Origin: Mesaphorura yosii
Taxonomy: Eukaryota > Arthropoda > Collembola > Poduromorpha > Tullbergiidae
NCBI GenBank assembly: GCA_009869945.1
Contig: WIXG01000601.1
Span: 1 to 33,566 of the forward strand
Direction: 5' to 3'
DNA length: 33,566 nucleotides
A program made the position numbers and the translations under genes. How positions within the stretch are numbered: position 1 is the first letter of the stretch; each line of letters begins with the position of its first letter. Of this stretch, positions 567 through 29,400 are shown piece by piece. The notes under the pieces were generated by a model. It saw only the letters and a program-made list of their open reading frames with translations. It did no database searches and had not been told where the DNA came from.

Positions 567-1513
567 TTAAAAGTGAGCTCCGTAGCCCGAGCTGTAGCGT
601 CCACCCTTGGCGAAGGCGACTGGGGCTGGACCAGCGTACGCGGCGACTGCGACGGGGGCAGCAACAACGGCTGGAGCGGCTACGGCGACTGGGGCGGCGG
701 CGTAGACGCGCTTGCCAGCGTAGACGGCTGGAGCCTCGGACTTGGACTCTGAGAAGGAGGCGCGGTGCTCGTGCGTCTCGCCTTCCGAGTTTCTGGTCTG
801 GTGCTCCTCAGTAACCTACGAACGAAGTGAAGAAGGTTAAGAACCGAATTATTCTGAAATTGAAGTCGTTCTTTACGCACCTTGACTGCCTGGCGCTCCT
901 CCTGGTGGTAGATTGGCTGGATGACGTGCTCACGGTGCACGTTGTTCAAGTGAACGTGGTGCTTCTGGAGGTGCAGGTTGTGCAAGTGGATCTTGTGCAG
1001 ATTGTGCTCACGGAGGATGTTTTCGTGGTGATGGTGGTTGTGAATGACCTTCTCGTGTTGGTTGTGATTGTGGATGATCTTCTTGGCGGCAGTGGAGTGG
1101 GTCTGGAAGGTCTTGACTTCGTGGGATGGAATGACCTTCTGAGTGTGGTAGTGGTACTCGCGGACCTGAGTTGGGCCGACGGAGTGAGTGGAGCGACCGT
1201 GGATGACTTCCTCTGGTGCAGCGTACACTGCGGGTGCGGCGTAGACTGGAGCAGCAGCGTAAACTGGGGCTGGAGCAGCGTAGACTGGGGCGGCTGGGGC
1301 TGCGTACACCGGAGCGGCGGCGGCTGGGGGTCCGTAGACTGCGGCTGGAGGTCCGTACTCTGCTGGAGGCTCGGCCATCACAGCGGATGCCTACGAAAAG
1401 CAATCAGGTTTTGAGTCATAATCAATCGTTCAACAGCCAGTCACGGATCCAAGCAAGACAACAAGAGGAATTCATTCACTTACCAGAAGAACGACAAAGG
1501 CGAAGCTCTTCAT
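567..1513 (-). CDS. secreted cuticular-type protein with VYAAP repeats and a His-rich core
   Basis: Three exons read on the minus strand: 1513-1484, 1390-881 and 815-567. Introns are 93 and 65 bp (donors GTAAGT and GTGCGT, acceptors CGTAG). They join in frame to 262 residues. The start is chosen because it gives a clean signal peptide (MKSFAFVVLLASAVMA) split by intron 1, as is common in arthropod cuticle genes. The mature protein begins with Ala/Pro/Tyr repeats of the VYAAP type (about residues 37-70), continues with a His-rich segment (about 117-165, 18 His in 49 residues, many HxH and HxxH), and ends with a second Ala/Pro/Val tail closing in GYGAHF. There is no Rebers-Riddiford chitin-binding consensus, so it belongs with low-complexity cuticular proteins. 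A role in the extracellular cuticle is inferred from composition; metal binding or cross-linking through the His segment is a guess. Gene structure is well supported. Confidence 0.85.
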
Positions 1514-3835: not shown

Positions 3836-4440
3836 CTAAAAGTTAAGGAGTAGAAAGATGGAGGAATCGGCCATGAATCCAAGCTGGTTGAGCGTGAGTT
3901 GACGATCCACGTAGTATAAGGAACTGACCTGACTTCGGAGCGTCCTGAATGATCGCAGAACGGTCATCTGCGTCCTGTCGCCTGTAAGCTTGCTCAACGT
4001 TTGCAGAAACTCAACCGACTTTTTGTTGGCGTTCGACAAAACGTACACGGCCACGACGCCGGTTCCGATGCAGATGGCTGCCAGAGCAGGTAGGAAAAGC
4101 AGCTCCGGACTGTCGAGCATCTGTCTGCTCGTCCTCACAGTCGCGTACAGAGCAGCGGGACCGAGTAGCTCGAGACTCGTCTTCAGGAGCGGGACGAAGA
4201 GACGACAGTATGATTCGTTGAAGAGGCCAGTCAGAATCACCAGCTGCCGGCAGACAAGAAGCGTGGTGTACGAGGTCTGTCTTTCTGCCTTGGCCAGCAC
4301 ATTGGTTTTGTCCAACGAAGTCTCACCGTCATGCAGTACGCGTACCCGATGAAGACAATGATTTCATCACGCGATTTCGCCGCGATTGTCGCGACGTGTT
4401 GATGCGTTTTGCTTATAAACTCTTGAATTGCGATGAGTTC
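3836..4440 (-). pseudogene. chemoreceptor-like seven-helix gene, C-terminal fragment with frameshift
   Basis: The last 150 or so residues match the intact receptor at 9540-10685: a loop motif around GLFNES, a conserved helix (LLKTSLELLGPAALY), the RTSRQML loop, the VYVLSNANKKSVEFL helix border and the closing SLYYVDRQLTLNQL...FLLLNF. A plausible acceptor (TTGTGTTCCAG) opens the exon at 4440. Upstream of it there are only about 200 bp before the next fragment, so the N-terminal half is missing. Near 4320-4335 the reading frame changes by one base (from ...YAYCMT to ...ETSLDKTN) with no room for an intron, although the sequence there happens to look like a donor (GTGAGA). Best read as a truncated pseudogene. 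Confidence 0.7.
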
Positions 4441-4652
4441 CTGGAACACAATTTAATTAACTTGTGAATTGAATCGATTAATTTTCAGAGAGTGTACGTT
4501 TGACCACGTCAAGCAAATTTCGCTTCAGAAATTGAGAAAACATAATTGCTTTTTTAATTAAAGCAGACGTGAATCAAGCAAAAGAGAGCATGAGCATTAT
4601 CTATGAACACAGATATTTCCATCGATAATTGTACTCGGTAATTCAATCCAAA

Positions 4653-5446
4653 TTAGTAGTTAAGAAGCAACAAGATGCTTGCATCAGCCATAAGTGAATT
4701 TCGTTCACAGTCAGCTGCCGGTCCACAAAGTACAGACTGCCAGCCCGGTTCCGCAGCGGACTCAAAGATTTATTGAGAATGGTTCGCTGAGATCGGGTGT
4801 CGATGATCCTCTCCAAATCTTTCAAGAAGGCGACCGACGTCTCGTACGCGTCCGTCAACGCGTAGACTCCCGTGACCACGAAAGTGAACAAGACGAAGGC
4901 GAGAGCCGGGAAGAAGAAGAGCCCCGAATCGGAGAGCATGCGCCCACTCATCCTCACCGTTAAGTACAGGGCGACCGGGCCAACAATTTCGTTGACGGTC
5001 ACGCATCATGAACACGGTGAACATGACTCGGCCAAGTGATTCGTTGTACAGGATGGTCAGAACTTTCAGGGGTCGATAAGCAAGACCGAGTCGAACTCGA
5101 GGAGTGTCCCATGAGCCATGGTCATGGATCTCAGTCATTTCAGCCAAACATGGAGTGTCATGCAGTACAAATAGGTGAGATACATGATTATTTCGCACTG
5201 CGTTCCCGGTTTGCTGATGGTGTACGTGGCGTACACGCAGCTGACGCCGAAGGTAAAGATATTTTGACTCGCAGGGGGCAGCCAGGGCTCCAGGTGGAAC
5301 CGGGCTCCTCGTGTATACACGCACAGGCAGGCGGAGCCCAGGACAACGATGTGGTCTGCAAAAATCACCAACCGAAGAAACCACGGCGCAAGTCTCCATC
5401 GGAACCCCACGACGGTCTCCTCGCCGTGCTCGTTCAATGCCAAGAG
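4653..5446 (-). pseudogene. chemoreceptor-like seven-helix gene, N-truncated with frameshifts
   Basis: This copy covers the second half or more of the receptor family. From 5446 (after an acceptor-like TTTTCAG) it reads LLALNEHGEE, then a helix, GARFHLEPWLPPASQNIFTF and EIIMYLTYLYCMT. It changes frame near 5150 to RPLKVLTILYNES, again near 5000 into VGPVALYLTVRMSGRMLS...GSLYFVDRQLTVNEI, and a third time near 4695 to reach the family ending (ASILLLLNY, stop TAA at 4653). Each break is a one-base change inside a conserved motif. No N-terminal exon with the family start motif is visible between 5446 and the MACPF-Hog gene. It is closely similar to the fragment at 3836-4440, so the two probably arose by tandem duplication. 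Confidence 0.7.
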
Positions 5447-5796
5447 CTGAAAACCGAATGCCAATCCGTTAGGGGAGAAAGAATCAGAATCAGAACAGTC
5501 ATGTCGTACAGGAGAGTATGGGAGGAAAATTCAGATTTTTGCTCATAATTCCGGTGTAAGAAAAGCTACGGCCATACTTCCGAATCATTTTTACTGGATT
5601 TTTAGTGGTCTACAAAATGGTATCCTTGAATATTGGATTTGACGTGTGGCCCAATTTCGTGGACTCTATTATAAGATCCTTTAACAACAATTTAACAAGC
5701 AGCTGCTATCTTAACCAATCTAAGCATGTTTTCATGTCTTAAAGTGATTGGTTTACACAATTGAAATGATATCATGTAGCCATACAATGAAAGAAA
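5447..5796. other. spacer between receptor fragment and MACPF-Hog gene
   Basis: About 350 bp holding the 3' untranslated region of the minus-strand MACPF-Hog gene. I found no canonical AATAAA in the expected minus-strand position and no remnant of a receptor N-terminal exon. Confidence 0.35.
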
Positions 5797-8609
5797 TTAT
5801 TTTAACATGCTACGAACACGCTGTAGTCCCATGGCATAGGCATGTACGCCTTCTTCGTTGTCATCATTTACCTGCTCACCCTTCTTGGTCCATAGTCGTC
5901 GCATTGTGTACCAAAGTTTGAGTGGTGCCATGGCAGCATCAGCCAATTGAAAGGAATGTACGTCAGCATAGCTTGTAACCAAGAATCCTTCAGCCAAGAA
6001 TGTTCCAGTAGTCGTCAAAGGACAATATACTCCCACATCTTTCTCAATCGTGATATTAGTAACCAGGCGCCTGCTAATTTGTCCGTTATCATCCATAAAA
6101 GCCATTGCGTCGCCCACTTGAATTAACTTTGCCAACACAGCCTGAAGCTGAGTAGAATTTTCTTGAGAAATCATCAGTAAGTGCTCTCTGGTCGCCTTCA
6201 AAATTCTTCCATTGTCGAATGTAAAGCAAATAAATTCCGCTACTTTAGCGGTCTCGGTATGCAATGATGTAAGAAACGTCGTTGGCGCACTCTTCTTGCC
6301 ACAACTCTTCATTGTAATCAAGCGATCTCCTGGCTTCAGCTCCGAAATCAACTTTGTCGATGTCGCGTGACCACTCTTATCAAAGAGGCGAACCATTGTT
6401 GTTGGCGGAAAGCAATCTTTTCCCGCCGGGATTTGTGCATCTTGCTGTCCCTGCCTGCCAATCTCGTCTCGTTTATTTTTAATCTTTCGTGCTAGTTTCT
6501 GCTCCAAAAACTCCTCTGTAGCTATTCTAAGCTCGCCACATTGTGTACATTGAGGAAGATTGTAATAAGGATATAGCGAGAAATTCGTCAGTTCTGTTGG
6601 ATTGTCCTGAACTGACTTAATCCAGTTTTGATATACTGCTGGAGTGAGATCCTCCAAAGATCGAATCAACGTCTGTGGTGGTGACCCTCCTCCAAACGTG
6701 ATGCTCATGTCGGATATTCCAACAGACTGTAACTTGCCAGCTGTACTCGACCTTTGAAATGAGAAACCGGCTGACAGTGCTTTGAAGTGAGCATCAAGAC
6801 CAATCTGTAAATCTGAGATTGAATTGGAATTGTAGCAGCTTTTTTGAATAGTGCAATCAATTTGAATGTATCCCCCAAAATGTAACTTGCTGATGAAATG
6901 TGTTCCAAACTTGCTGAAGAATTCGTTGTATTTCTCTTCATTGCCCCTGTACACTGATGGAAGTGATTGGAGAATGGCTGTGAATCCAGTCGAGATGTAC
7001 TGTTCAGGCTCATCTACTCGAAGGAGAGCAAACTTGACGTCATGCACCAAAGACATTTGAACGTCTTGCACTTGTGTCTGTGACTCAAAACCCCAACGAC
7101 GTCCTATGCCACAGTTTAAGCCTGAAGATACGTTCAAATTTACCCCAAGGTCAATTCCATACTGTGTCTTCCTGGCTGCTTGATATGATTCCTGTGTCTC
7201 ATACCACAGTCTGCGGAATTCCGTTTTGTTCTCCGTGTAGCATTTTAAGAAGCTGGGCATAAGATATTTCGAGTTTCTGATTTGAAGTGTGTTCAGCTCC
7301 GATGAGCTCAAGACAAAATGACTCTTTGAAGTTTCAGTCACTGGACAATATGCATACCCCAGCGATTGAAACTCGTAAATTGGTACCACTTCCAACGGCG
7401 AAATGTGCAAATGCTTTTCAAGTAATTTTGCTGCCTGGTTGACATGCATGTCTAGGCCCTCATCGACTGGCTGATGCACAGCAGTTGCTGCTAATGCAGA
7501 CTTGTCAGGGCAACTTGATTGGAAATACCATGAAGTGAGTAAAAGACCTGTCATTCAATATTAGAATCAAACGACCGTGTCAATTGAATCGGGAGGTTCA
7601 ATCACAGTACTAACCAAGTTTGTCGTCTGACGCTTTAAAAATGTTGAAGATTGCTTCGATTAAAGTGCAATGTGACAAGCTCCCGTCTGGCAGTTCATAG
7701 AAATCCGCACCTGGAGGCTTCTCCAATCCGTAGTCCTCGGGCTCATTCTCGACAAAAACAACTTGAACCTGTAAATTAAACGACAGATTTTGGTGCAAAA
7801 TCTCGTCAACTCGTCTTTAAATTGCACATGCAAGTATTAAGATATGGTATGCTTACATTTCTTACGCCAACAAATTCCCGAACTGAATTCTTCAGAATCC
7901 TCGTGATGGTGTTAATTTTTTCTTGATATTTGCCCTTCTTTTTCGGTAGCATGCAAGCGTGGGTACCAACAGCTATCAAATTGATGTGCTTGACATCAAC
8001 TAAATTTGTGTCTCTAAGTATCTTCAATGACTTGCTCAGTACAGAGTCTGGGCCTTCCAACCTCTGTTCACTTACGTTAAACATGAGCAGAACCAAGTTG
8101 GGATAGACTTTGGCTGAAGCAAAGGCGTGCACAATCGATGGAATGTTCCGTTTTTTGAGACCCGGATATGTGTTTCGAAAGTTTAACAGTTTGACCAGAT
8201 TTGGATGGTTCCTTGAGCTATCAGTGTCCAAAAATCCAGGCGAGTCGACGAGTACCAATGGCGCTTTGATTGCCGGGCTGACGGATGTAACTGTCAACTT
8301 TTTTGTGCACAAGTGAACGTCGTTTGTTCCAGATTGACGATCGGAGACCTGGCACAGGTTCGGATCTTCAAACAGTCCGTTGATCGTTGTTGATTTTCCA
8401 ACACCAGATTGTCCTGCAAGTACAATGAGAACCTCCGACGTTGGTCTACCGTGGTTGACAGCCGGAACAGAATAGTGGAGAACGTGTTTTGTGTCCGGCG
8501 TCGCACTTGCAAAGTTCGTTTTCCCTGTTAGAAGATTGATTACGGTTTCTACAGAGATGTCCAATCCTAAACGTTCCATCACGTTCTCAATCGTTGCTGG
8601 TAATTCCAT
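5797..8609 (-). CDS. GTPase-MACPF-Hog modular protein
   Basis: Three exons (8609-7857, 7768-7615, 7547-5797) join in frame to 885 residues. The start ATG at 8609 has a good context (GACAATGG). Module 1 is a P-loop GTPase: Walker A GQSGVGKST at 66-74, likely G2 Thr95, G3 DSPG at 122-125, and a weak G4 (THAC, 216-219). Module 2 is a MACPF domain, about 360-640, with the signature Y-x6-FGTHF at 509-520 and the glycine turn FGGGS near 587. Module 3 is a Hedgehog-type Hog domain, 681-885: nucleophile position Cys681 (CFPP), GD at 709-710, TxxH at 755-758, GVYCPLTTTGT at 808, TSYA at 827, then the Hedgehog-specific tail (APLKLW and GVHAYAMGLQ). No signal peptide or clear membrane helix is seen, so the protein probably starts in the cytosol. 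Known MACPF proteins form oligomeric pores in immunity, venom or development; the role here is unknown. Domain calls are strong, function is open. Confidence 0.9.
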
Positions 8610-8720
8610 TGTCTTGTGGCTTGAGTGTGTTCGTTGCTGTACGGGTTAAATTAAGTGTGTGTTGGCCCGGAGTGAAATTGAGACTGAGTTTGAATGCAAT
8701 TAGAAGGCTGACTTTTATTC
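8610..8720 (-). promoter_or_regulatory. core promoter and 5' UTR of the MACPF-Hog gene
   Basis: On the minus strand an ATAAAAG element (about 8718-8712) is followed by a perfect arthropod initiator TCAGTC with its A at 8685. The spacing is about 32 nt. This would leave a 5' untranslated region of about 76 nt before the ATG at 8609. Confidence 0.5.
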
Positions 8721-9539
8721 TTTTTCAACACCAATCTAGAAATGCTACATGAAACATAGCTCAGTTGAGTGGCGCCGCTGCTCAGTCCATGAGGAACAAG
8801 ATAGTTCCTAAAAATGAATCAAGATAAGAGGAGGATTTGTTGACTCAAGTGCGGCACAGTCTTATCAGTAGCTGATAGCTCAGCCTAATCCGTACTTCAT
8901 ATTGCTGTACAGAATACCGGCAGATGAGTCAAGAGATGCTGATTAATCCCAGTTACAGAGGCCTCTTAATCTTCTTTGGGTCAATGTGTCTTTTGCTTAT
9001 CTATTACTCGGTTCTAGTGAAGGCCTTGAAGTGGTTGAGTTGTAGCAGGAGGCAATTCAAAAGGACAAAATGAGACAAGTTTTTATTTTTCTTATGTGGT
9101 TAAGTATTTCGAGTTACAAGGAGGAAAACTGAACAAAGTTGTAAAACAAATGCACCTGCACCTGTATTTTTCGTATTACATTTCTGTGAATTCACATCAT
9201 TTTACTGTGAACACGCAGGACAAGGACAGAAGCACGTTTCAAGGTCAATGCTGTTTCTGTTCGATTTGCTAAGACTGGATCATGTCCATATCCATACGAA
9301 TGCGGATCGGAAGATTTTATCAAGCCGGCTTTGAGGCTCATTCAGCATACGGTGAATTTTATTATGCAAATGACACTGAGTAGCAAGTTCATAATTTCGA
9401 GGTGTAAGAAGTGGTCCAAAAATGTGGAATTATTTGTCTAGAAACCAGGTGTTTTCATGTGAAGCTTAATTTTCTGTCTACTTGCGCGCTCAAAGTCACT
9501 GTTAGACCGCTCTTCAAAGAAACTTGTCTAGATAGAGTT
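8721..9539. other. intergenic spacer with 3' end of the receptor gene
   Basis: About 820 bp upstream of the MACPF-Hog promoter and downstream of the intact receptor gene. A minus-strand AATAAA at 9358-9363, 177 nt after the receptor stop, is a likely poly(A) signal; another lies at 9080-9085. No further coding sequence was recognised. Confidence 0.4.
9358..9363 (-). terminator. poly(A) signal of the intact receptor gene
   Basis: TTTATT on the plus strand is AATAAA on the minus strand, 177 nt beyond the stop codon at 9540. Confidence 0.35.
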
Positions 9540-10685
9540 TTAATAATAGTTGATCATCAAGAAAATCGATGAATCCATCAGAATCCGGAGCTCGTTCAAC
9601 ACCAGGTTACGGTCCATGAAGTAGAACGATCCGACTTTATTTCTTAATTCTATGCATGATTTCAGGGGCACTGTCCGCTGTTTTCTGTCCACCGCCACTG
9701 CGTTCAAGGCGTGCAAGAACTCTACCGACAGTTTGTTGGTCTCTGAGAGCACGTAGACAGTGCCCACTCCAAAAACAAAGCAGACAGAAGCGAGAATAGG
9801 AAAAATTGTCAGCGTTGGATCCGAGAGCATTCTGTCACCGACTCTGAAACTCATGCACAACGTCGTGGGCCCAATGATTTCGGTAAACGTCTTTGTTAGT
9901 GGAATGGGGAACTTCCCCAGCGACATGTTGAAGAGGGTGTTGATTAGGGCCAACGATCGATACGACAGAATCAAGTTGTTGAAGAGCTTTACTCTGATTT
10001 CTTGCTGGTCTGCCGCCCGCGCCGTTGCCGTCAACTGCTCCAAGCAAGAATTTGTGTGCACGGAGTACGCGTGCCCAATCACAAGCAACGCACTCGCCAG
10101 ATTTACCGCTTTGTAAATTGTGTACAAAGAAACCAGCATGCTGACTGCGAAAGTGGCGATGCTCTGCTTGTCCTTTGCCAGCAGCATGGAGTCGAGATGG
10201 TAGCGTGAGCCTCGTGTGGCCGCCAGCAGAATGAAGGCGACCATAATCGTTATCTGACCAGCCCACAAGCAGATTTGAATAGCGTGTATGGTAAGCTTTC
10301 GTTTAGTTGATAACTCTGCGTTGTCCGACCAGACGCGCTGAGCTTGAGTTTTGGCTTGCAGTTGATTCGCTAGCGCCATGAGTTCGTTGTGCCAGCCACC
10401 GCCAATGCTTATGATGGTTACGTACGTGGCGGCCATTGTCACACAGCAGTGGATCATGACTTCCAGAAGCGGCGGACGTGGGCCTTGCGAACAGAATGCG
10501 CCAACCAAGAACGCCAGGTGAAGTGTATGAACTACATTCACGACGACGTAGCTCACGAGTCTTCGTGTCGACTTGAATCTCGTCAAACGTCTTGGTTTCT
10601 GGTCCCAGTCAAACGGAAACAGTAAGCACTTTGTAGATAGAAGCAGGAATTTTTCCAAGAACTGAAATTCGAGCCTTGACAGCAT
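9540..10685 (-). CDS. seven-helix chemoreceptor-like protein (gustatory-receptor-like), intact
   Basis: One uninterrupted exon of 381 residues. The open frame runs further upstream but without an ATG. The ATG at 10685 (context CAAAATG) begins the MLSRLEFQFLEK motif that also opens the other full-length copies, so it is taken as the start. Hydrophobic segments lie at about residues 45-64, 75-95, 132-156, 173-205 (perhaps two), 259-281, 292-313 and 368-380, seven in all. The ending GSFYFMDRNLVLNELRILMDSSIFLMINYY region resembles the last-helix region of arthropod gustatory receptors (G-F-F-x-V/L-D-R-x-L), but the usual TYhhhhhQF signature is replaced. Such receptors are ligand-gated cation channels in the plasma membrane of sensory neurons; the ligand here is unknown. 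Unlike the copy at 14375-15598 it has no intron. Family assignment is by eye, hence moderate confidence. Confidence 0.7.
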   Translation of the reverse strand: MLSRLEFQFLEKFLLLSTKCLLFPFDWDQKPRRLTRFKSTRRLVSYVVVNVVHTLHLAFLVGAFCSQGPRPPLLEVMIHCCVTMAATYVTIISIGGGWHNELMALANQLQAKTQAQRVWSDNAELSTKRKLTIHAIQICLWAGQITIMVAFILLAATRGSRYHLDSMLLAKDKQSIATFAVSMLVSLYTIYKAVNLASALLVIGHAYSVHTNSCLEQLTATARAADQQEIRVKLFNNLILSYRSLALINTLFNMSLGKFPIPLTKTFTEIIGPTTLCMSFRVGDRMLSDPTLTIFPILASVCFVFGVGTVYVLSETNKLSVEFLHALNAVAVDRKQRTVPLKSCIELRNKVGSFYFMDRNLVLNELRILMDSSIFLMINYY

Positions 10686-11100
10686 TTTGGTGAGACGCTC
10701 GGGACTCTTGACTCCGAAGTGTCTGAGAAATACGAGGAGCGCCGAGACAGTGGCTAGCAAAGCCTGTTTTATTTTACGCCTTGCATATTTTCATCATTTC
10801 GATTGAGTTGAGTAATTAGATTGATGCAAATGTTTGTAAATTCGTTCGAGCTGTCAAATGAAATATTGAATATTGCGTAACATGTGGGTCCTGTAGAAAA
10901 TAAACACAAATAGAATTCTTAATTTTATTTCACACATTCTCATTCGTGATTTTCAAAATTGACATTAGAAATGAGTCAAAAATAATTAAAAACTTAAATT
11001 GACAATTCATGTCCAGGCATTTCTCAGTAATCATTGATTGCAAAATGCCCAGACGACTATGATTTCTACAAACAGCTTCAGAGAAAACTTGATGAATATC
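10686..11100. other. spacer between receptor copies
   Basis: About 415 bp, AT-rich. It should hold the promoter of the intact receptor gene and the 3' flank of the next pseudogene copy. No clear TATA/Inr pair or gene was identified. Confidence 0.3.
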
Positions 11101-12217
11101 CTAGAAACTTATCAACAGGAACGTCAATATGTCCAGCATGAACTTGAGCTGAGTCAGGGCATGATTTTGATCCATAAAATAGAGCGAGCCACCCTGGGCC
11201 CGCAACGGCGGACATGAGACCATGATCGCCGGCAGCAACTTTCCTTCTTCGATCTCACATCCAGACACGGAACTCTTCTTGTACTGGCGGCATGGATTAA
11301 GACGACTGACTTCTCGTACGAATGGGACAACACCAGCGTTGCAAGTACCTTAAACGAAAATACTGAGAAAGCAGCAACAGGCAAAATCAGTAAGTGTGGA
11401 TTCGTCAATAGATTTCGATTTGTCCGAACCGTCACGAACAACAGAGTCCGTGCGAGGATTTCTGTAGTTGTTTTCAAAAGCGGGAAAACGACACTGTCGA
11501 AAGTTCGGTTGAAGAGTGTATTAAGAAGTAAGAGCCTCCTGTAGGTGTGGTTTCCATTGAGTGGGCAAGTTGTTTCAAGAGCAAATGCGTAGCCACACAG
11601 TACACGTACCAAATCGGCACCAGATTTAGGGCGAGCTCCGTGGCTCGAGCGATGGTGAATCATTCCAGCAGCCAGGCGGGTATGAATGTCCACGTATTTT
11701 GCCATTCGTACGGAAGGAGCGTGTCCAAATAAAAATTGGCTCCGGCTGCCTGGAGGAGAAACAGGCCTACAGCCGCCCACCTAATTCTAGGTACAGCGCA
11801 AATGAACCGCAATGCTCTGACTGCGCGTCTGCTTGCCATCCCACTCACTTTTGGAATACAGGCGACCTTGTTCAGTTGATTCATCAGTATGGCCAGCTCT
11901 TCGTCACAGCTCCCACATCCGAAAAGTTAGCCGGACACTTGTGCCGCGACAAGAAGAACGTGGACAATCACTTCTAAAATTGAAGGATCGGGCGTCTGCG
12001 TTTGGCCTGTCTGAAATGCTCGGACGATCAAGAAGTCCATGTAACATACTTCGAATGCCGTGACGGCTTTCCGAAGCCTACTTTTACGCCAGGACGTCGT
12101 TATCGATAGTGTCTTCTTGTCTTGTGAGATTTGTTCTCATTCAAAGACGAAAGCCGCCGATCCGGTGGAAGAATCGAGCGCATTTTCAAAGCGCTTGAGT
12201 TCTAAGGCTGTGAACAT
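11101..12217 (-). pseudogene. chemoreceptor-like gene, full length but with stops and frameshifts
   Basis: The copy can be followed from the family start (ATG at 12217, MFTALELKRFENAL) to the family end (FLLISF, TAG at 11101), so it is essentially complete. It carries three premature stops: TGA at 12137-12139 where relatives have Trp in FEW, TAA at 11927-11929, and TGA at 11660-11662 where relatives have Trp in LEW. There are also at least two one-base frame changes, near 11545-11560 (before the NTLFNRTF motif) and near 11215-11260. There is no intron at the site used by the copy at 14375-15598. Recognisable pieces include NQLNKVACIPK, LDTLLPYEWQNTWTF, RTNRNLLTNPHLLILP and SLYFMDQNHALTQLKFMLD. 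Clearly dead as a protein-coding gene. Confidence 0.8.
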
Positions 12218-12603
12218 CTTTTAATAGACGAAAGGTCGGTCAGGCGGGTTCGAATTCGGGCTCATACTGCTTTTAAACTGGAAGAGCGATGTGAGACGTA
12301 AACACTTACAGATAAAGCAATTTCGCAGCATTAAAGTTAAATGCCTAATTAAAATTCTCTGCGTTTGCGTCAGCAAACAGCCCCGTATTTTTCCAATTTG
12401 GGCCTACGTGACAATGGAGTAAATATTTATGGGTTCAAGTTTCAAACAAACTTGACAGGGTGGATAATCATCGACGATTTCACCATATTTTTTTAATTTA
12501 AAAATTGTATAATGGCGAGCAGAGCACAACTTGAAAAATTTTAGATTTTCAGATATAAAATTTAATTCTTGGAACTCCTAATTAACAATTGCTCCTGGTC
12601 TGC
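12218..12603. other. spacer between two receptor pseudogenes
   Basis: About 385 bp. It contains a GGTTCGAATTCGGG string near 12248 that resembles a tRNA B box, but no cloverleaf can be drawn around it. Nothing else was recognised. Confidence 0.3.
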
Positions 12604-13760
12604 CTAGAAATTTATGAGCAGAAACATCAAAACGTCAAACATAAAATTAAGCTGCGTCAAAACATGCGACTGATCGATGAAATAAATGGAGCCGACTTGG
12701 GTTCGCAGTGGCAGGCAAGACGCCACGGTCGCCGAAAGTAGCTTCGAATGTTTGACGTCACCAAAGCTAGAAGAAATGGAACTTGCTTTGTCTTGTACTT
12801 GATCGATTGCAAGAAGGTGACTGATTTCTCGTAGGAGTGCGACAGCACCTGAGTTGAAAGAACTGCAAATGTAATTGCAGCAGCTGCCGCCATGGGCAAA
12901 ACCAGCAAGTGCGGATGAGTCAACAGGTTTTGATCCGTTCGAATCGCCATGAATAGGGAAGCTGGTCCTGTGATTTCTGTGACGGTTTTGATAAGGAGAA
13001 GAAGGACGCTGCCGAAAGTTCGGTTGAAAAGCGTGCTCAGTAACAACATGGTCCTGTAGGTACGGATTGCTGCGTATGGCCTGCCGCTCCGTAATTGATG
13101 TGTGCTCTGCTTCAGGAGAAAGTTCGTCATCAAACAATGCACGTATCCGACCGAAAGTAGGCAGATCGCATATTCCGTGGCACGTGGTATTGTGCACCAT
13201 TCGAGGATCCAGACTGGGAAGAAAGTCCACATATTTTGCCATGCAGGCGGAAAGGCCGTGTTCAGATGGAACTTGGACCCGGCTGTCAGGAAGAGAAAAC
13301 GCGCTATCGCTAAGCACGTGATTTGAGTTACGATGCAAAAAAAACTGTAGTGCCCGGATCGCAAGATTTCTGGCGTTCCTCCTCGTTCTCCTGGGGAGTA
13401 ACGCCAACTTCTTCAGTTGGTTCACTAACGTTACTAACTCTTCTTCACAGCATCCACAGCTGATTGCTACAGAGAATACTTGCGAGATAATCAGCAGAAG
13501 CTGGACTACGACTTCTACGATTGGCCGGGTTCAGTTGTCCCGCATGCTTGCATTTGCATTGAACGAACTATTAAAAAGGCAAGGTAGCAGACTTGGAGAG
13601 CCGTGACGCCCTCCCTCCACGTTCGTTTACGTCGGGAGGTTGTCACTGACAATTGCTTCTTTTTCTCTGAAGTCCATATCCATTCGAAACCGAATAATAA
13701 CGCTCTCGTGGAAGAATAAATCGCCTTCTCAAAGTATTTTAATTCTAAGGACGTCAACAT
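12604..13760 (-). pseudogene. chemoreceptor-like gene, full length with three frameshifts
   Basis: The family start is at 13760 (MLTSLELKYFEKAIYSSTRA with the FGFEW motif) and the end is at 12604 (MFLLINF, TAG). No premature stop lies in the intended frame, but three one-base frame changes interrupt it. The first is near 13520-13530, just before PIVEVVVQLLL. The second is in a run of eight T (minus strand) near 13337-13344, between RALQFF and CIVTQITCLAI. The third is near 12750-12780, before SCLPLRTQVGSIYFID. Between them the family motifs are well kept: GSKFHLNTAFPPAWQNMWTF, WILEWCTIPRATE, STLFNRTFGS and RTDQNLLTHPHLLVLP. The good preservation and a break in a homopolymer leave open that part of the damage is assembly error; as it stands it is a pseudogene. 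Confidence 0.7.
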
Positions 13761-14374
13761 CTTTGGTGTTTCCTGTTCCCGAGTCAAATCGAAGCTGCGA
13801 GCTGCGTTGCAGGCTGGCTAAGCTAGCTAAGAGTCAAACTGACTGTTTTATGTTTTTGTTGTGGGAATCGAAACTCGAAAAGTTGAGGACAAAAATGGTC
13901 ACCGAGTTAAAATTAAGTGCCTACTTAAAATTGGTTTAGTCTTACCAGCCTGTTCTTAGTCGACGATCATGAAAATTAAGTGTGATGTTTGCTTTACCGT
14001 GGCCTTACCACGCCGAAGAAAATTACGGCTCAAAAGTTTCGATGTCGTCTCAAGAATCCCATACAAATTGTAATTCTAACGGCACAGGCACAGAGCAGAC
14101 AGGTATTTTTCTCCTCTTCTTCAAAATGAAAACTGGATATGCAGATAGGCAATAATTGGCACGTCAGAAATTGAAAAATGTGTAGTATATACTTGTATAT
14201 TGTTTTATTGCGTTTCCGAAGCTTATAGCTTAACGTTAGTTCTTAATTAAGTCTAAATATGCATCGACAATTCAGTTAGTAACTAGATTATTGTTTGCTA
14301 ACATACTCCAATCGATTCTAATTGACTCTGACAACGCATTACGGACGACTATTGAACATACTATGGATAGTTAC
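13761..14374. other. spacer between receptor copies
   Basis: About 610 bp holding the 3' flank of the intact receptor at 14375 (minus-strand AATAAA at 14204-14209) and the 5' flank of the pseudogene at 12604-13760. No further gene was recognised. Confidence 0.35.
14204..14209 (-). terminator. poly(A) signal of the receptor gene at 14375
   Basis: TTTATT on the plus strand is AATAAA on the minus strand, 166 nt beyond the stop codon at 14375. Confidence 0.35.
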
Positions 14375-15598
14375 TTAGAAATTGATCAACAAGAACATCA
14401 GCGCGTCAATCATGACCTTCGTCTCCGTCAACATGAAAGGTCGATCCACAAAGTAGAGTGCACCGACCTTTGCCTTCAAAACCATGCACGATGATTTCTG
14501 TGCTTGAAGAAGCTTAGGCATGATTCCAGCTCCATCCATACAATGGAAAGACCTCAAGAACTTGATGGATTGCTCATGCGTTTCCGACAAAACGGCTGCT
14601 GAGGATAATGCAAAGAGAAAGCACCCAACACCCAAAGCAGGGAGGATCAACAGTTGAGGGTTCGTCAGGACACTTCGGCCCAGGCGAATTGCCATGAACA
14701 GCGATGCCGGTCCGACTATTTCGACATCCGTTTTGAGGAGTGGATAGAACAGGCTACCGAATGTGCTGTTGAACATCGAGTTGAGAACCAGCAGGCCGCG
14801 GTACGTTCGAATTGCGCGCCAGGGGTCGGTATGGACTTGACTTAATACTTCATTGAGCATTGAGCCAGATATCAACCAGAAGATGAATCCGAGATCAACA
14901 ATAATCAACGAGTAGACTACCGATCTGAACATGACAATTGTTTCCAGGGTCCACGCAGCCAGAAATGTCCACCAGGTGCTCCAGGGATGAGGAAGGACGG
15001 AGTTTAGGTGAAATTTCGACCCGTTGGTTACAAGCATCATCAGGCTCATGCATGGCCACGCCGAGGCGCCAACGACTAAGATGAAGCGGATCATTCGAAC
15101 TGCTCGGCGTCGGCGCTCAGTTACCCCCAGCGACTGTCTTGCTGAGGCTGATTTTTCTGCTGACGCGGTGCAAGTGGAACAATATATACAAGAACGAACT
15201 GGCCAATAGGACTGAATAAGAATCTTACCCCCCTTCTCGGCTACTGCAGTGATGTACAGTTGATTCAGTAGTCCCACGAGTTCCTCCTCACATCCTCCAA
15301 TGAAGACCCTGATTACAGAAGAAAATCCGATCGAGTTGGTGACGAGAAAATGAGCAGCGACTTCCATGACTGGCAAATTAGCCTCGGATTCTCCACGAAA
15401 TATTTGCACCACCAGAAACGTTAGAAGGCTCCATCCAATGAACGTGATGCTATGCTTGAGACAGGTTTTGTACCAAGTTGTACAGATTGACAACCGTCTC
15501 TTCTTGCTCTTGCTCCTCCATTCAAATCCGAACGAAAAAGGGCCGGTAGATAAACGAATCGCCTTTTCCAGATACGCAAGTTCAGTCTTTGTAAGCAT
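14375..15598 (-). CDS. seven-helix chemoreceptor-like protein, intact, with one small intron
   Basis: Same family as the gene at 9540-10685. The start at 15598 is chosen because MLTKTELAYLEKAIRLSTG matches the starts of the other copies; the frame is open to an earlier ATG at 15814, which would add 72 residues without family likeness. A stretch near 15228-15157 has a good donor (GTAAGA) and acceptor (GTCAGCAG). It is 72 nt long, a multiple of three and free of stops, so the frame is open with or without it. Removing it gives 383 residues and aligns well with the 381-residue paralogue, so it is most likely an intron. Conserved points: FGFEW near the start, GSKFHLNSVLPHPWSTWWTF, NSMFNSTFGSLFYPLLKT, RLGRSVLTNPQLLILP and the closing GALYFVDRPFMLTE...FLLINF. 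Presumed plasma-membrane chemoreceptor; ligand unknown. Confidence 0.7.
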   Translation of the reverse strand: MLTKTELAYLEKAIRLSTGPFSFGFEWRSKSKKRRLSICTTWYKTCLKHSITFIGWSLLTFLVVQIFRGESEANLPVMEVAAHFLVTNSIGFSSVIRVFIGGCEEELVGLLNQLYITAVAEKGGKILIQSYWPVRSCIYCSTCTASAEKSASARQSLGVTERRRRAVRMIRFILVVGASAWPCMSLMMLVTNGSKFHLNSVLPHPWSTWWTFLAAWTLETIVMFRSVVYSLIIVDLGFIFWLISGSMLNEVLSQVHTDPWRAIRTYRGLLVLNSMFNSTFGSLFYPLLKTDVEIVGPASLFMAIRLGRSVLTNPQLLILPALGVGCFLFALSSAAVLSETHEQSIKFLRSFHCMDGAGIMPKLLQAQKSSCMVLKAKVGALYFVDRPFMLTETKVMIDALMFLLINF

Positions 15599-16674
15599 CT
15601 TGGAATTCAGGAGAGAGTCTATCTGAGGTCTTTCTCCGCGAGTTCTGCGGTGTCGACTAAGAACATGACGTGACAGAAACGCTTTGTCGTACGCTGCATT
15701 ACATTTGACCCAAAAGTTTTGTACTTTGGAGTGCCCTTGAAGCGTGGAATTTTTAATTGACATAATTGAAATTGTAGCCGGAACTTTTCGACGTGTGTAT
15801 TGCACTTTGTACATAAAAGACGTCGGTCCTCTGATTTAACTCACTGTCCACGTCTAAAATCAAGGCGTAGCTAATTACAGGTTAGCGAAAAGTGTCAATC
15901 ATTTCACGAAAAGAAGAGAACATTGAAGATTTCAAGCCATTCCGAACTTTGCCCGGTTGCGAAATAGAATAATCAATAAGTTGTCACGTCCTGTCCAGAG
16001 TCCAGTGAGGCTTTCGGCCTTGAGAGTACCTGCCTCGAAGAATTTTAATGTTGTTCGACTTCGACGTACGAGACCAGATCAGTTCAGAAGTAATTGAAGG
16101 TCGATATACCGCAAGTGCCAATTTCTTTCAATCAAGCCAGTGCGTGGACTGGGCACGGCTGGAATTCTAATTATTGTATCATCATGGCCCATGCTCATAA
16201 TTGAATCGAGACTTCAGCCAGCTCTCTTAATATTCGTAGCAACAGCAACTGGAAAATGCACCCAGCCCAACTCAGCCACACTCCAACTCGAACTCAAACC
16301 ACATCCTAATTTCTTGTATCAATTAGTTTAACCGCATTCTTCCAGCACGTAAATTTCCAGCACGCAGCGCAGTTGGCGTTTACGTTGTCAAAGCCTTGCC
16401 TGCCTTGCTAACAAGAATTCGGTGGCCAGGCCATACGTCGTAGCCACAGACATGCATGGTCCTGATGCTTAGTCATTCTTCCTTACCCACAGATTATTGT
16501 CTATTGTACGATTGTGCCAGATGTTTAGACGAGAAACCAGAAATAAATATCCAAGTGTTCAATTGTGTAATCAGCAGGTAGCGTAGTTGATTATTTTATT
16601 GTATACAGCTCTTTTCACCAATTTTGTATTGCAATTGTTGTGAACAATGTCCGTAATTGCAAGATAATGTCAAC
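15599..16674. other. divergent intergenic region
   Basis: About 1.1 kb between the minus-strand receptor gene and the plus-strand four-helix gene, the point where gene orientation switches. It should contain both promoters. I could not pick a convincing TATA/Inr pair; AT-rich stretches occur at 16560-16660. No other coding sequence is supported. Confidence 0.35.
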
Positions 16675-21188: not shown

Positions 21189-24100
21189 ATGAGCACGCAC
21201 AGTAATGATGACCAAGACGAGGATATGATGACAATCCAAGAACAGCAAGAAGAATCGCCGAGCTCACCGCCACCGGGCCCCGCGTCTAGAGCAAGTCCTC
21301 CAGCGTCCCCTCCACCCGAATCGCCTGTAAGCCCTCCAGCGTCTCCGCCCCCAGCGACTGCCTCAAATCTGCCGTTGTCTCCCCCGTCTGAGTCTTCTGT
21401 GAGTCCTCCATCCTCTCCTCCTGCTCCATTGGCTCAAGCATCAGCGTCAGACGTTGCCATTGCCCTTGCTGACAATAATGAGCCACTGCCGCTTGATGAC
21501 CGAGGGTCAGAGCCAGAGCCACATGAAACCCCTGTTGAGAGTAATGACGATGCCGTGCAAATGACAGTGATGACTATGACGAAGAATCTTGAAAATGTCA
21601 ATGTTCCTAATGCCGATGATCATGCTGATGAGACATCATCAGGTAATGTAAATGAGCATGCTGACAATTTGAACACCACGCTTGAGACTGAGGCTCAGAG
21701 TCCTGCTAAACATAAGAATATTGACCAAGACCAAGAAGTGGCTCATGAGCCCATGCATGCTGAAAATGAGCCTGCCGGCGATGAGGAAGATAAAACAGTT
21801 CCCGAAATTCCCGATCAAGTGCCAATGCAAACAGCTTCACAATCTCAGAATGAGAGTGAGGAGACTGAAATGAAAGATGACGATGAAGGCGAGGTGGCTG
21901 AGGAAGCTGACGAAAGTCAGCCCATGGCTGTGGAAGACGTGAATTCTTCGACGACTAGAGAGACCACTGCTACGACGAAAGAAATCGACGAAGATCTTGA
22001 AGACGGCGAGTTGGAAGATGAGGAAGATGACGAGCCTGTGATAATAAAGGTTCAACCGACTCCCGAAGTAACCATTCTTGGGAGCAGCAAGAGCTCACGG
22101 CATTCATCAAAAGATAAGGACAAGGAAAAAGACAAGGAGAAGGACAAGGAGAAAGATCGACACAGCAGCAGCAAACGGAGGGGCAGTGCCGACAAGGAGA
22201 AGGAAAAAGACAAGAAGCGAAGTCACCACCACCACAGCAGCCATGTCGAAGATGCAAAGCCGAAGAAGAGCAAATTGGATCCTGCGGTGATGGCGTCCGA
22301 AGACGACGAAGAGTGCTACTTGTTTGTGCGAGGTGGATCACCGTCTCATGCTGGCGAGAACAATTACGCACAAGGCCAAGGAGGATATCCGGATGAACAC
22401 ATGCAAAACTACAACTCTGGTGTCGTCGGTCGACCGCCGGCAGGACTCTTCGATGTGGGTATGGAAGACGATACTGCTACATCACCACCAGGACCGGAAG
22501 GACGAGGCAAGCACATGAACGACGGAGGCCACGGAAGAGGCGGTGGAAGACGGCAAAGATCACCGCCAGGAAGCAGGTAAAATAATCATCACTGGCTTTA
22601 CTCCATAATTTGGGTTTCGACTTGAGTTTAATTTTATTAATTTTGGGTTTTCCAGAAGAAGACGCGAAGAAAACATGGGTCGTGATCGGCCATCACAGCG
22701 TGGAGGCCAGGCCAAATCTGGCAGGGGCAAAGAACCCCCGTCTCTTGGTGATAAGATGATGCATGCTGCTGGTAAACAAGAGCAAATCTGTTCCTACTAC
22801 ATGCAAGGCAAATGTCAAAAGTCTCATGAAGAGTGTTCCTTCTCACATAACGCAGTTCCGCCTCGCAAAATGGAGCTTTGTAAATTTTGGATGATGGAGT
22901 GTTGTGCCAAGAAAGAAAAGTGCTTATACCTTCATAACGACTTCCCCTGTAAATTTTATCATACTGGTCTTATTTGCAAGGCTGGTGAAAAGTGTAAATT
23001 CAGCCACAAGCCGTTGAACGAAGTCACGAAGGCCGTGCTTCTGAAGGTAAGCGTCAGTAAGATATTACTTTGACCTTCTGCACTGACGGAGACGGAGTAC
23101 TAATTTTGTTCTTGCCCTTTCCTTTCTTGCAGCACATTGAAACCGCACCGAAGGAGATTCTTGGCGATTTCCCAAGACTGAACCGAGGAGGAGCCTTGAC
23201 ACTGATAAACAAAATGGAGGCTAAAGTCCAGGGTAAATTAAAGAGAGAAAAGAGGGAGAAAGAGAAAGCAAAACAGAAAGAACAGGACGGTACGACATGC
23301 ACATGTTTCCTAATCTCTGACAATTTTCAACCCAATGCATCCCAAATCCAACTGATGGAAGCTTTGAATGCATGTCTTTAAAAGCCCCTTGCCATATCGT
23401 TGTCAAAATCAGAATTACTAGAAGCCAACTCGAGGCTTATTCTTTGGTTGAGCTCATATGTCCTGTAGTGAATTTGTTTTGCTTTCTCTTTTTCTTTTAT
23501 CATTCATTACTCATTACTAGCTGATGAGGCCAGAATTTCACCAATGAATAGAGGCTTTATGGCTTTGATTCCCTCTGCAGAAAAAGAATTTGCTGATAAT
23601 CCTCGACGGTCAAGATGGGAGCAGCCGACGAGTGACGACAATGAGAAACTCCAGGAGCTCATGAAGGAAGCTGGAATCGAGGGTTTTTACAAGGAGACAC
23701 TGGATGGAATGGCGGATGAACAAGAGCCTCCACAAAGGCACCCGCACCAAAATCGAGATCGTGACCGTCATCAAGATCGCCGTCATGTCCCAGGCCATGG
23801 ACATAACGATTATAACGACTATCAAAACAACGCACAGAATCACCTTCAGCAGCAGCCGCCACCAAGGCTTCCTCTTTTGCATCCACCACCCCCAATCAAC
23901 ACATCCACGATGCCTCCTCCAAGCCGATTCCAACCCCATCACATTGTTCACAATCCTGCCCTTGCCAGTGTGCTCGCCAATTTGAACATTCCTTCGTCTA
24001 CGATCGACACTGCAGGACAGCAACAGCAGCAGCCAGCGAAAATCAGCCCGGATCTGTCGATGATCAATGAAGCTTTGCTGAGCACTCCACCTCCTCCGTT

Positions 24101-26432: not shown

Positions 26433-29400
26433 ATGGAGAGCTATGAGAACGCCGACGCCGCGACAGGCTGTAATAATGGAGTACATTTGGAACCCGCCGA
26501 ACAACCTCCGCGCCCGAAGCCGAGGCAGACCATCATTCTAAACGCAGCAATGGCAAGTCCATCGCCATTGCCGTCACCTCGAGCTCGGAGCAGAAACTCG
26601 CCTCCAACAGACGAATCGGTTGTCAAGAAGCCGGCAATTCCAGATATTTTACACAGCCCGCCATTATGCATTCCAGTCGCAAGCGATGAACAGGAAGCCA
26701 CCACGGCAGCACCAACACCATCCTCTATCCTGAAGAAAAGGACAAATTCGTTCGGATTTGCCGGCCCTTCCGTGTCATTCGAGGTGGATGAATCCATGAC
26801 AAGAACCAAAAGCACTGACAGCAACTTGAGTTGTGAATCCGAGACGGGGTATTGGTCCATCGGTAGCGCTGGCGCTGGTAGCAGTGGAATCCTAAAAGAA
26901 AAGAGGCCCATCCTGAAAATCAGAAGAATGTCTCTGGGGAACACTGAATCCGAATCCGACTCGCGTCCGAATGAACTCCAATCCATTCTCAAACGAAAGC
27001 ACTCGCTGGATAGTTCGACACTGCTCCGTGACACGAGTTCTAGTCCGTCCTCCTTATCTCTGTCCTCGTCTTTTAGTCCTGAACCTAAGCCAATCCTGAA
27101 AAATGTGTCAAGTTCCGAAGATCTGGGCGATGAGTCCCACTCGCCGCCAAGATCTATTCTTAAGAAAGCGACCAATGACGGTGCCAATGCAACAACGCAA
27201 ACAAAGACTGATGACAATGTGAGACCAATTTTGAAGAGGCCAATGTCCAAAGGGTCACGAAGCGAAGATGACGACGAAGACTTTCAAGCTCACTCTTATT
27301 CTCATTCCGCTACTTCTACTAGTGCTAGTAAAGGCATTCTGAAGAGAACTCTAGAGGAAGAGATCACAGCAGGCGTGAGCGTGGCCGAGAGAAAGTCAAT
27401 GTTATTGCAATTGGACAACGTGAAAATGAGAACTGCCCCAATGAAAAAAGATCCTGACAAGCTAATTGAGGACGAGTGCTCAATCCTTCACTCAAATGCC
27501 GTTCCTTCCGTAAAGTCGAGGCGATTGCAGCTATTAAATTCAATGCTTGGAGTCGGAGTCGTCGATGGCGAGCTGCTATCATACAAGGACGAGAGAAAGG
27601 ATATTGACTTGAGTCCAGAAAACGATATTCCAAAGCCGATTCCAATTCCAAAAGACGAAACCAATAATTCCTCCCATTCCGAGCCAAACTCCGTTAACAC
27701 TGATGAGACTGATACCGCTGCTGCTGCTTTAATTGGCTCAGCTGAAAGGTAGAAAATCAATATCTTATGCAGTGAAGTGAAATTCTTCCATTGATTCTAT
27801 TCCACTGCATTTACAGGCAGAGGAACACTGAAGCGTGTGATAGTTTCAGCAAGAACCCCGATCACATGCGTGACGATGATAAGCTCAAATCTGGGGCAGC
27901 ACTAATTCGAGAAAGAATTGCAGCTCTCAAAGCAGAAGCTGAAGTCAGTTGGTTAAAGCGAGTTCCAGAGAAAGAAATTCCTGACCTTGAAATTCTTCCG
28001 GTGAAAACTGAGGAGCCTGAGCTTCAGGATAAGGAGAACGAATCAGAAATTGAAAGGCGGCGGAAGGTACAAGTCTAAAATAATTTCCCCTACCATAGTG
28101 GACGTGTAGCATGTAATAATACAATTTGTTTTGTATTTTTGCAGGATGTCAAAAGCAATTTAATTGTGAACCGCCTCAGATTGCTTGAGAAATCGCAAGA
28201 AGGATGGAAAAAACGAGTATCTGAAATAGATGCGGCAAGCTTTACCGTTCAAGGAAGGCTTGAAATGGCTGGAAAGGTGACCAAATCACAGAGACCAGAG
28301 GAAAATATCAACAAACTTCCAGCCAGGACGAAATTGGAGACAATTCAGCCAGCACTGACTCAAACGAATGACAGTGAAGATTCCAGTCTCCACACGAAAG
28401 ACACAAACGAGTCTGGTGATGTTCGTATGAAAGCTGTTGGGCCTGTTAGTCACACATCTTCCTTTGATGATGATGAGATCGAGGACACGGTACACGAACA
28501 ACAGTTCGAGCAGTTCTTCGCCAGTGCCTGCAGTTTGATGTCAAAGTCGGACGATCATGAAATTGAAGAATCCTCTTTTGATTCTATGGTTGGCAACAGA
28601 GAACAAATGTTGGGATTCCGGCAGCGCGTCCGTGTCAACAGAAAGAATCTGAGCAAGAACCCCGTCAAGATTCTGGCAGCAAGATTGTCACCGGATGATG
28701 ATTTGACTGGAACCGCATCGATCTCTGAAGCTGGTGAAGGCGAAAGCAATGATAAACAAAAACGTAAGTGGAACTACGTACAGGCTTTGCCCAAGAGCTG
28801 TAAGTTCAACTTCTTTATTCCTTCCTGTTATTTGAATTTTTCTCAACTTATACAGCGGCGTCTCTCAAGTCTAACTTGTCGCCTGAAGCGCTCGCAGGAT
28901 TGGCTAGCAAAGAAGACTATTCCGCAATTAAACTGAAGCGGCCCGTCATTTCAACGAAGGGATACCCCCATCCGATGCTTATCATGATCAAGGGCAAGCG
29001 GTTTGTGCAGACTAAATTAGTGTGTCCGGCAGTAAGCAGCCTGAACAACGGAGACTGCTTCATTTTGGTCACCGGTGCAGATGAAGTGCGTAAATATTAA
29101 GAAAGAAATGCTTCTTTCTATCCTGCCTGTTGAGGTCGTTAACTAACTTGTACACTGCTCTTTAAAAGGTTTATCAATACATTGGCGAATACTCCAATCG
29201 CATGGAGAGATCGAAGTCTGCAGAAGTGGTGGCAGCTATCAAACGCAAGAAAGATCTCGGATGCGGACCGAACGCCGTGTTTTACACAATTGAGCAGCCA
29301 TGCGGGACGAATGAATCTCATTACGAGAAATTTATTTCCGCTCTTGGAGGAGGTGTCCCTGATCTCGCAGAAGATAAACTCGGAGATGAATACGATGAAG

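Follow-up and report, generated by a model that had tools for sequence, protein, structure and literature searches.

Does a single gene of Mesaphorura yosii join a GTPase-like domain, a MACPF domain and a Hedgehog-type Hog domain in one protein and, if so, what might such a protein do? The question arises from a gene predicted from the genomic sequence of contig WIXG01000601.1, of which a stretch of 33,566 nt (the window) was analysed. The gene runs from 8609 to 5797 on the minus strand (Table 1). A sequence-only reading had proposed three exons whose junctions close in frame, and our reconstruction agrees: both introns are of the GT-AG type, and the joined exons of 2658 nt give 885 codons plus a stop. 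The places that it had assigned to the P-loop, the MACPF signature and the first Hog residue were confirmed as well. It had also called for a domain search, and Pfam recovers all three domains above their cut-offs: Hint with 118.6 bits (cut-off 29.7, E 3.7e-34, residues 679-884), MACPF with 67.1 bits (cut-off 21.5, E 3.2e-18) and the P-loop GTPase domain MMR_HSR1 with 31 bits (cut-off 21.9, E 3.1e-07, residues 62-178). NCBIfam yielded only generic GTPase matches below cut-off for exon 1, and no match for the other three stretches searched. The full-length AF2 model, built from 3 alignment rows, was too poor for use (pLDDT 33).

Table 1. Features of the window gene, of its flanks and of related loci in the same genome. 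Plain coordinates refer to the window; those with an L prefix refer to other loci.
Feature	Location	Strand	Description
Exon 1	7857..8609	-	753 nt, residues 1-251, bulk of GTPase-like domain
Intron 1	7769..7856	-	GT-AG, phase 0; predicted protein P0001 starts at same junction
Exon 2	7615..7768	-	154 nt, end of GTPase; conserved blocks VFVENEPEDY and DFYELPDG
Intron 2	7548..7614	-	GT-AG, phase 1
Exon 3	5797..7547	-	MACPF and Hog domains in a single ORF, stop codon included
P-loop GQSGVGKST	8388..8414	-	Residues 66-74
G3 motif DSPG	8235..8246	-	Residues 122-125
MACPF domain	6514..7023	-	Pfam match, residues 478-647
Start of MACPF signature, YNEFFSKFGTHF	6895..6930	-	Residues 509-520, followed by x6-GG
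Hog domain	5800..6414	-	Residues 681-885
Predicted scissile pair D680-C681	6412..6417	-	Putative cleavage site
H732	6259..6261	-	At place of Hedgehog general-base Asp (D46/D303), by alignment
TxxH motif, T755-H758	6181..6192	-	By alignment and motif position
H-A-Y, residues 871-873	5836..5844	-	Counterpart of HWY hinge, sterol recognition region
Weakly cuticle-like protein	680-1387	-	Below cut-off; flanks locus
CCCH zinc-finger ORF	22609-23073	+	Flanks locus
Gelsolin-repeat ORF	29166-29966	+	Flanks locus
C9 gene (L029)	L029:5668-5898, 5971-6099, 6173-7676, 7754-9069	+	Four exons, 1059 aa
GTPase-MACPF neighbour of C9 gene	L029:2067-4271	-	735-aa ORF with MACPF match
Protein with two MACPF matches	L030:1842-5660	+	Further relative
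GTPase-like pieces on two contigs	L037:4214-4975, L038:3335-3934	-	Further relatives
Apparently stand-alone Hog, C364	L003:1486-2106	-	207 aa, starts M[SV]CCCCFPPSAKV
Apparently stand-alone Hog, C191	L004:1486-2133	+	216 aa, starts M[SV]CCCCFPPSAKV

The domain combination might be an artefact in which the gene model or the assembly fused neighbouring genes, and the fact that the model was drawn from sequence alone speaks for this. Yet the MACPF and Hog domains share one uninterrupted ORF of 585 codons in exon 3, so that the junction between them is independent of splicing. Moreover, a search for the same architecture, as the sequence-only reading had advised, revealed a second gene on contig C672 of the same genome (G000; 93 Mb, 1127 contigs). 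This paralog has six exons and 967 aa, is 30% identical to the window protein, and shows the same domain order with different introns. Its exon 5 covers the GTPase from its second half onwards and stops shortly within the MACPF match, at a point corresponding to about residue 485 of the window protein; the remaining MACPF and the Hog are encoded by exon 6. We chose the acceptor site of its exon 3 ourselves, and the N-terminus of the C672 protein is uncertain. The same exon (L024:2249-2533) holds a tandem repeat coding for GAFGSSPV/GASGLSPV directly before the GTPase.

The joins recur in database proteins. P0001 (ENA, 649 aa) is a MACPF-Hog protein whose alignment, with 41-43% identity, takes in 72% of the window protein; its match (E 1.9e-152) was obtained with the window protein alone as the query, and the later search profiles included P0001 and hence are no independent test of it. 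P0002, a Folsomia candida protein named 'GTPase IMAP family member 7', is a GTPase-MACPF protein; its alignment covers 66% of the window protein at 40% identity (E 8.8e-158, from a profile built without P0002). Its start, MKLP, agrees with the MELP of exon 1 and thereby supports the start of the window gene. As annotated, P0002 ends inside the MACPF domain and has no Hog, and this annotation may be a truncated model. The GTPase and MACPF domains are also joined in one ORF of the C9 gene discussed below. The C672 paralog with its other introns, the MACPF-Hog join of P0001 and the GTPase-MACPF join of P0002 thus argue against a mis-joined model; together with the single MACPF-Hog ORF and the C9 ORF they led us to reject a splicing or assembly artefact, which we regard as highly improbable. 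The earlier claim that one protein carries all three domains therefore holds.

Identity to the window protein differs among the domains: 50% (P0002) and 38% (C672) in the GTPase, 42% (P0001), 34% (P0002) and 27% (C672) in the MACPF region, and 44% (P0001) and 34% (C672) in the Hog. P0001 and P0002 were the strong relatives in three protein searches, each of which scored about 8000 candidates (7993, 7994 and 7999); the HINT matches to P0003 and P0004 were weak (E 3.7e-4 and E 2.7e-3). The search that found P0002 missed P0001, an expected match, so further relatives may have been overlooked. For prokaryotic and viral relatives, two peptide patterns each were run on genome and viral contigs; they matched 72 and 109 stretches, among which tblastn identified no relatives.

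The surroundings of the gene are as expected for an animal chromosome, with flanking zinc-finger, gelsolin-repeat and cuticle-like ORFs (Table 1). The window also contains a tandem array of related ORFs at 3836-15835 on the minus strand; the seven compared share stretches of 28-52% identity, and several are broken. By eye the ORFs of this array look like chemoreceptors, and the two tested had no Pfam match at E 0.01.

Profile and motifs point to a P-loop GTPase-like, AIG1/septin-like domain at the N-terminus of the window protein. Both the P-loop and the DxxG motif (DSPG) are present. The guanine-specificity motif of GTPases is N/TKxD; the G4 motif of the window protein is non-canonical, reading VGTHA at 214-218 with no N/TKxD, and hence GTP binding is not assured. 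The closest solved chain by sequence is Septin-9 (E 1.9e-4), while GIMAP4 is found at E 0.3. The AIG1 profile stays below its cut-off of 27 bits in the window protein (17.8), P0002 (25.9) and the C9 protein (24.3).

The MACPF domain has an intact GTHF-x6-GG core, which it shares with MACPF/perforin proteins such as perforin-1 (3NSJ), C8 alpha and protein C9, whose solved chains are weakly matched by sequence. In contrast to these proteins, the window protein has no visible secretion signal and bears an N-terminal GTPase and a C-terminal Hog. Its signature has F at the position where the MACPF consensus has Y, and some MACPF proteins are non-lytic. Both points would suit an explanation in which the GTPase-MACPF part is a non-lytic scaffold, comparable to some developmental MACPFs, that the Hog only places at the membrane. 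The intact core argues against this. We consider such a scaffold possible but somewhat unlikely, and it would be compatible with the other readings discussed here.

What the Hog domain does depends on its active site. In Hedgehog, the thioester is formed via Cys1 and TxxH, and cholesterol is activated by an Asp, numbered D46 in Hint domains and D303 in the fly protein, according to the available text of PMC8529194 and PMC9163320. The window Hog has C681 as Cys1 and T755-H758 as TxxH, and the presence of both makes self-cleavage plausible. The place of the Asp is taken by a His, H732. C681, T755, H758 and H732 are identical in all three MACPF-linked Hogs (window, C672, P0001). As aligned, His occupies the general-base position in six of the seven Hogs compared (window, C672, P0001, C364, C191, P0004), and only C213 has the Asp. 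This count includes P0004 and excludes P0003, a bacterial protein with several HINT modules; the P0002 residues that fall into Hog alignment columns were left out, being an alignment artefact that stems from the short P0002 tail.

Across the genome, the Hint profile gave six matches in five places, namely the window, C672, C364, C191 and C213, the last of which holds two. Judged from its Hog part, which retains the general-base Asp as well as the HWY motif, C213 looks like a true Hedgehog. The Hogs of C364 and C191 apparently stand alone. They are 50% identical to each other and have His at the general-base position, SxxH for TxxH, and five residues before Cys1.

We know of the exchange of the general-base Asp for His otherwise only as a laboratory mutant, D303H of fly Hedgehog, the original study of which is reportedly that of Zhao et al. 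in 2019. This engineered protein kept its structure and activity, and its activity increased >200-fold with coprostanol and >300-fold with epicoprostanol (available text of PMC9163320). Since D303H is active in fly Hedgehog, the His speaks for a window Hog that is active, and permissive in the sterol it transfers, and against an inactive one.

Other positions depart further from Hedgehog. The -1 residue is not Gly but D in the window protein (D680), C in C672 and S in P0001; the Cys of SCYA is kept in C672, and Ser stands in its place in the window protein (S828) and P0001. As the general-base Asp, the scissile Gly and the SCYA Cys are replaced in the window Hog by His, Asp and Ser, respectively, plain Hedgehog chemistry should not be assumed. 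Of the two sterol-region motifs described in the available text of PMC7906309, HPR and HWY, the former reads D-P-K in the window protein and N-P-K in P0001, and is H-P-R in C672 only, as mapped by eye. The three MACPF-linked Hogs all retain P844 and H871-x-Y873 of the sterol region, again as mapped by eye.

An alternative explanation might be that the Hog cuts between D680 and C681 without attaching a lipid, and so serves as a built-in clock or a zymogen release of the GTPase-MACPF part. Such a hydrolytic release would be in line with the presence of Cys1 and TxxH, with the Asp at -1, which in inteins favours N-terminal cleavage, and with the replacement of the HPR His by Asp in the window protein. 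However, P844 and H-x-Y would be needless for pure hydrolysis and are nevertheless kept in the three MACPF-linked Hogs, and fly Hedgehog with D303H still transfers sterol. We consider release by hydrolysis unlikely. Alternatively, the Hog might not cleave at all, but form a tail through which the MACPF domain senses sterol or is inhibited. The lack of the scissile Gly and the SCYA Cys in the window protein would fit, as would the two apparently stand-alone Hogs, which with SxxH and only five residues before Cys1 indicate that Hogs with almost nothing to cut persist in this genome. Conversely, C681, T755, H758 and H732 are identical in the three proteins despite overall identities to the window protein of only 30% and 41-43%, and a non-cleaving Hog seems distinctly unlikely to us.

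By sequence and by fold, the top PDB matches of the window Hog are Hedgehog autoprocessing domains (1AT0 and the D46H form 6TYY), with which it shares Cys1, TxxH and, as far as mapping by eye shows, part of the sterol-region motifs, and from which it differs in the three substitutions named above. A Hog-only AF2 model of low confidence (3 rows, pLDDT 49, pTM 0.45) served the fold search only; with it, Foldseek ranked 6TYY first (E 5.8e-9) and 1AT0 second, followed by inteins. None of the nine Pfam matches of the window protein up to E 1 is a Hedge domain. Unlike a splicing intein, the protein has no C-extein after the Hint, as the match reaches residue 884 of 885.

Hydropathy, a crude test, shows no signal-peptide-like stretch at the N-termini of the four GTPase proteins. 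Their best 12-residue mean within the first 45 residues is 1.40 (window), 0.69 (C672), 0.73 (P0002) and -0.11 (C9), and the same measure gives a signal-peptide-like 2.52 for a MACPF protein on C636. Two observations count against a cytosolic location: none of the other three proteins reaches the window value, and in the C672 model the 19 residues at 40-58, which span the uncertain junction that we chose, average 1.67.

Our best explanation builds on the architecture, its conservation and the active-site residues, and is offered tentatively, as something a little short of probable: a GTPase-MACPF protein acting in defence in the cytosol, with a Hog that would cut between D680 and C681 and put a sterol on the C-terminus of the product. 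The Hog would thus be a C-terminal, self-dispensing lipidation tail on a cytosolic GTPase-like and MACPF protein. C681, aided by T755 and H758, would attack the preceding peptide bond to form a thioester, and H732, at the position of the Hedgehog Asp, would activate a sterol bound by the sterol-recognition-like C-terminus. This would yield two products, the GTPase-MACPF protein of 76 kDa with its ester at D680 and a Hog fragment of 23 kDa. The sterol would anchor the pore-former at membranes, and GTP-dependent assembly would permit oligomerisation of the MACPF domain. The role would probably be cell-autonomous defence.

A second type of HINT tail may occur in the same genome. The C9 gene encodes GTPase and MACPF in one ORF (Pfam MMR_HSR1 28.1 bits, MACPF 65.8 bits), and an alignment of 606 columns (probability 99.5%) shows its protein to be collinear with the window family, although more distant than C672. 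After the MACPF domain it reads SSCLRAGTLILMGDG. Pfam Hom_end_hint scores 15.7 bits at this tail, below its cut-off of 32.1. The last exon has only two matches among solved chains up to E 10, Prp8 (E 0.86; 6MWY, which we take to be the Prp8 intein) and PI-SceI (E 1.1), both at the Cys1 block, and hhalign aligns the tail with bacterial HINT modules over 76 columns at a probability of 60%. Each of these lines is weak alone, but taken together they indicate that the C9 protein probably ends in an intein-like HINT. If so, the genome contains GTPase-MACPF-HINT proteins with two kinds of HINT. The neighbour of the C9 gene has a GTPase-like part that is 48% identical to C9 (query residues 6-130), and Pfam finds no Hint in its 735-aa ORF. 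This and the further relatives at L029, L030, L037 and L038 suggest a gene family.

The sequence-only reading had regarded this domain order as undescribed. That view needs to be narrowed, because fusions of a GTPase with a Hint or Hog domain have been published. GmGIN1 of Glomus mosseae combines an AIG1-type GTPase with a bona fide Hog and was reported without a signal peptide (available text of PMC2362128), and AIG1-Hint proteins are largely expanded in Glomeromycotina (available text of PMC8778642). These proteins (MEROPS C46) resemble the window protein in having an AIG1-type GTPase followed by Hog/Hint, but no MACPF is described in them, and the window GTPase is below the AIG1 cut-off. 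Among animals, amphioxus has a CARD-AIG1-HINT protein, the combination being said to occur elsewhere only in a few multicellular fungi (available text of PMC12373286), and snails have AIG1-Hint proteins, with the signal peptide absent from all AIG genes (available text of PMC7053062). They likewise pair an AIG1 GTPase with a C-terminal Hint, but have a CARD or nothing where the window protein has a MACPF; this comparison is one of domain order. P0002 shares the GTPase-MACPF part, but its annotated form lacks the Hog. The full GTPase-MACPF-Hog order was not found in the open-licence papers searched, for which reason its absence is weak evidence, and the available text of PMC12373286 describes no GTPase-MACPF-Hint protein. 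Given the GTPase-Hog precedents, only the intervening MACPF is new.

The classic example of a cholesterol-esterified protein is Hedgehog, and prenylation anchors immune GTPases elsewhere, much as we propose for lipidation by HINT tails. The combination of GTPase, MACPF and Hog could represent a pore-former able to attach itself to membranes. As a broader proposal, which we place on the unlikely side, self-sterolated, GTPase-gated intracellular pore-formers might constitute a class. In such a class the HINT tails, Hog in two genes and probably intein-like in a third, would be built-in lipidation or release modules, and the natural His would be the working form in non-Hedgehog Hogs, broadening the range of attached alcohols. 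If true, a pore-domain protein with a Hedgehog module and a natural form of the general-base exchange would carry sterol ligation beyond morphogens into membrane attack, and would suggest why GTPases of the immune type bear Hint/Hog tails in fungi, snails and lancelets.
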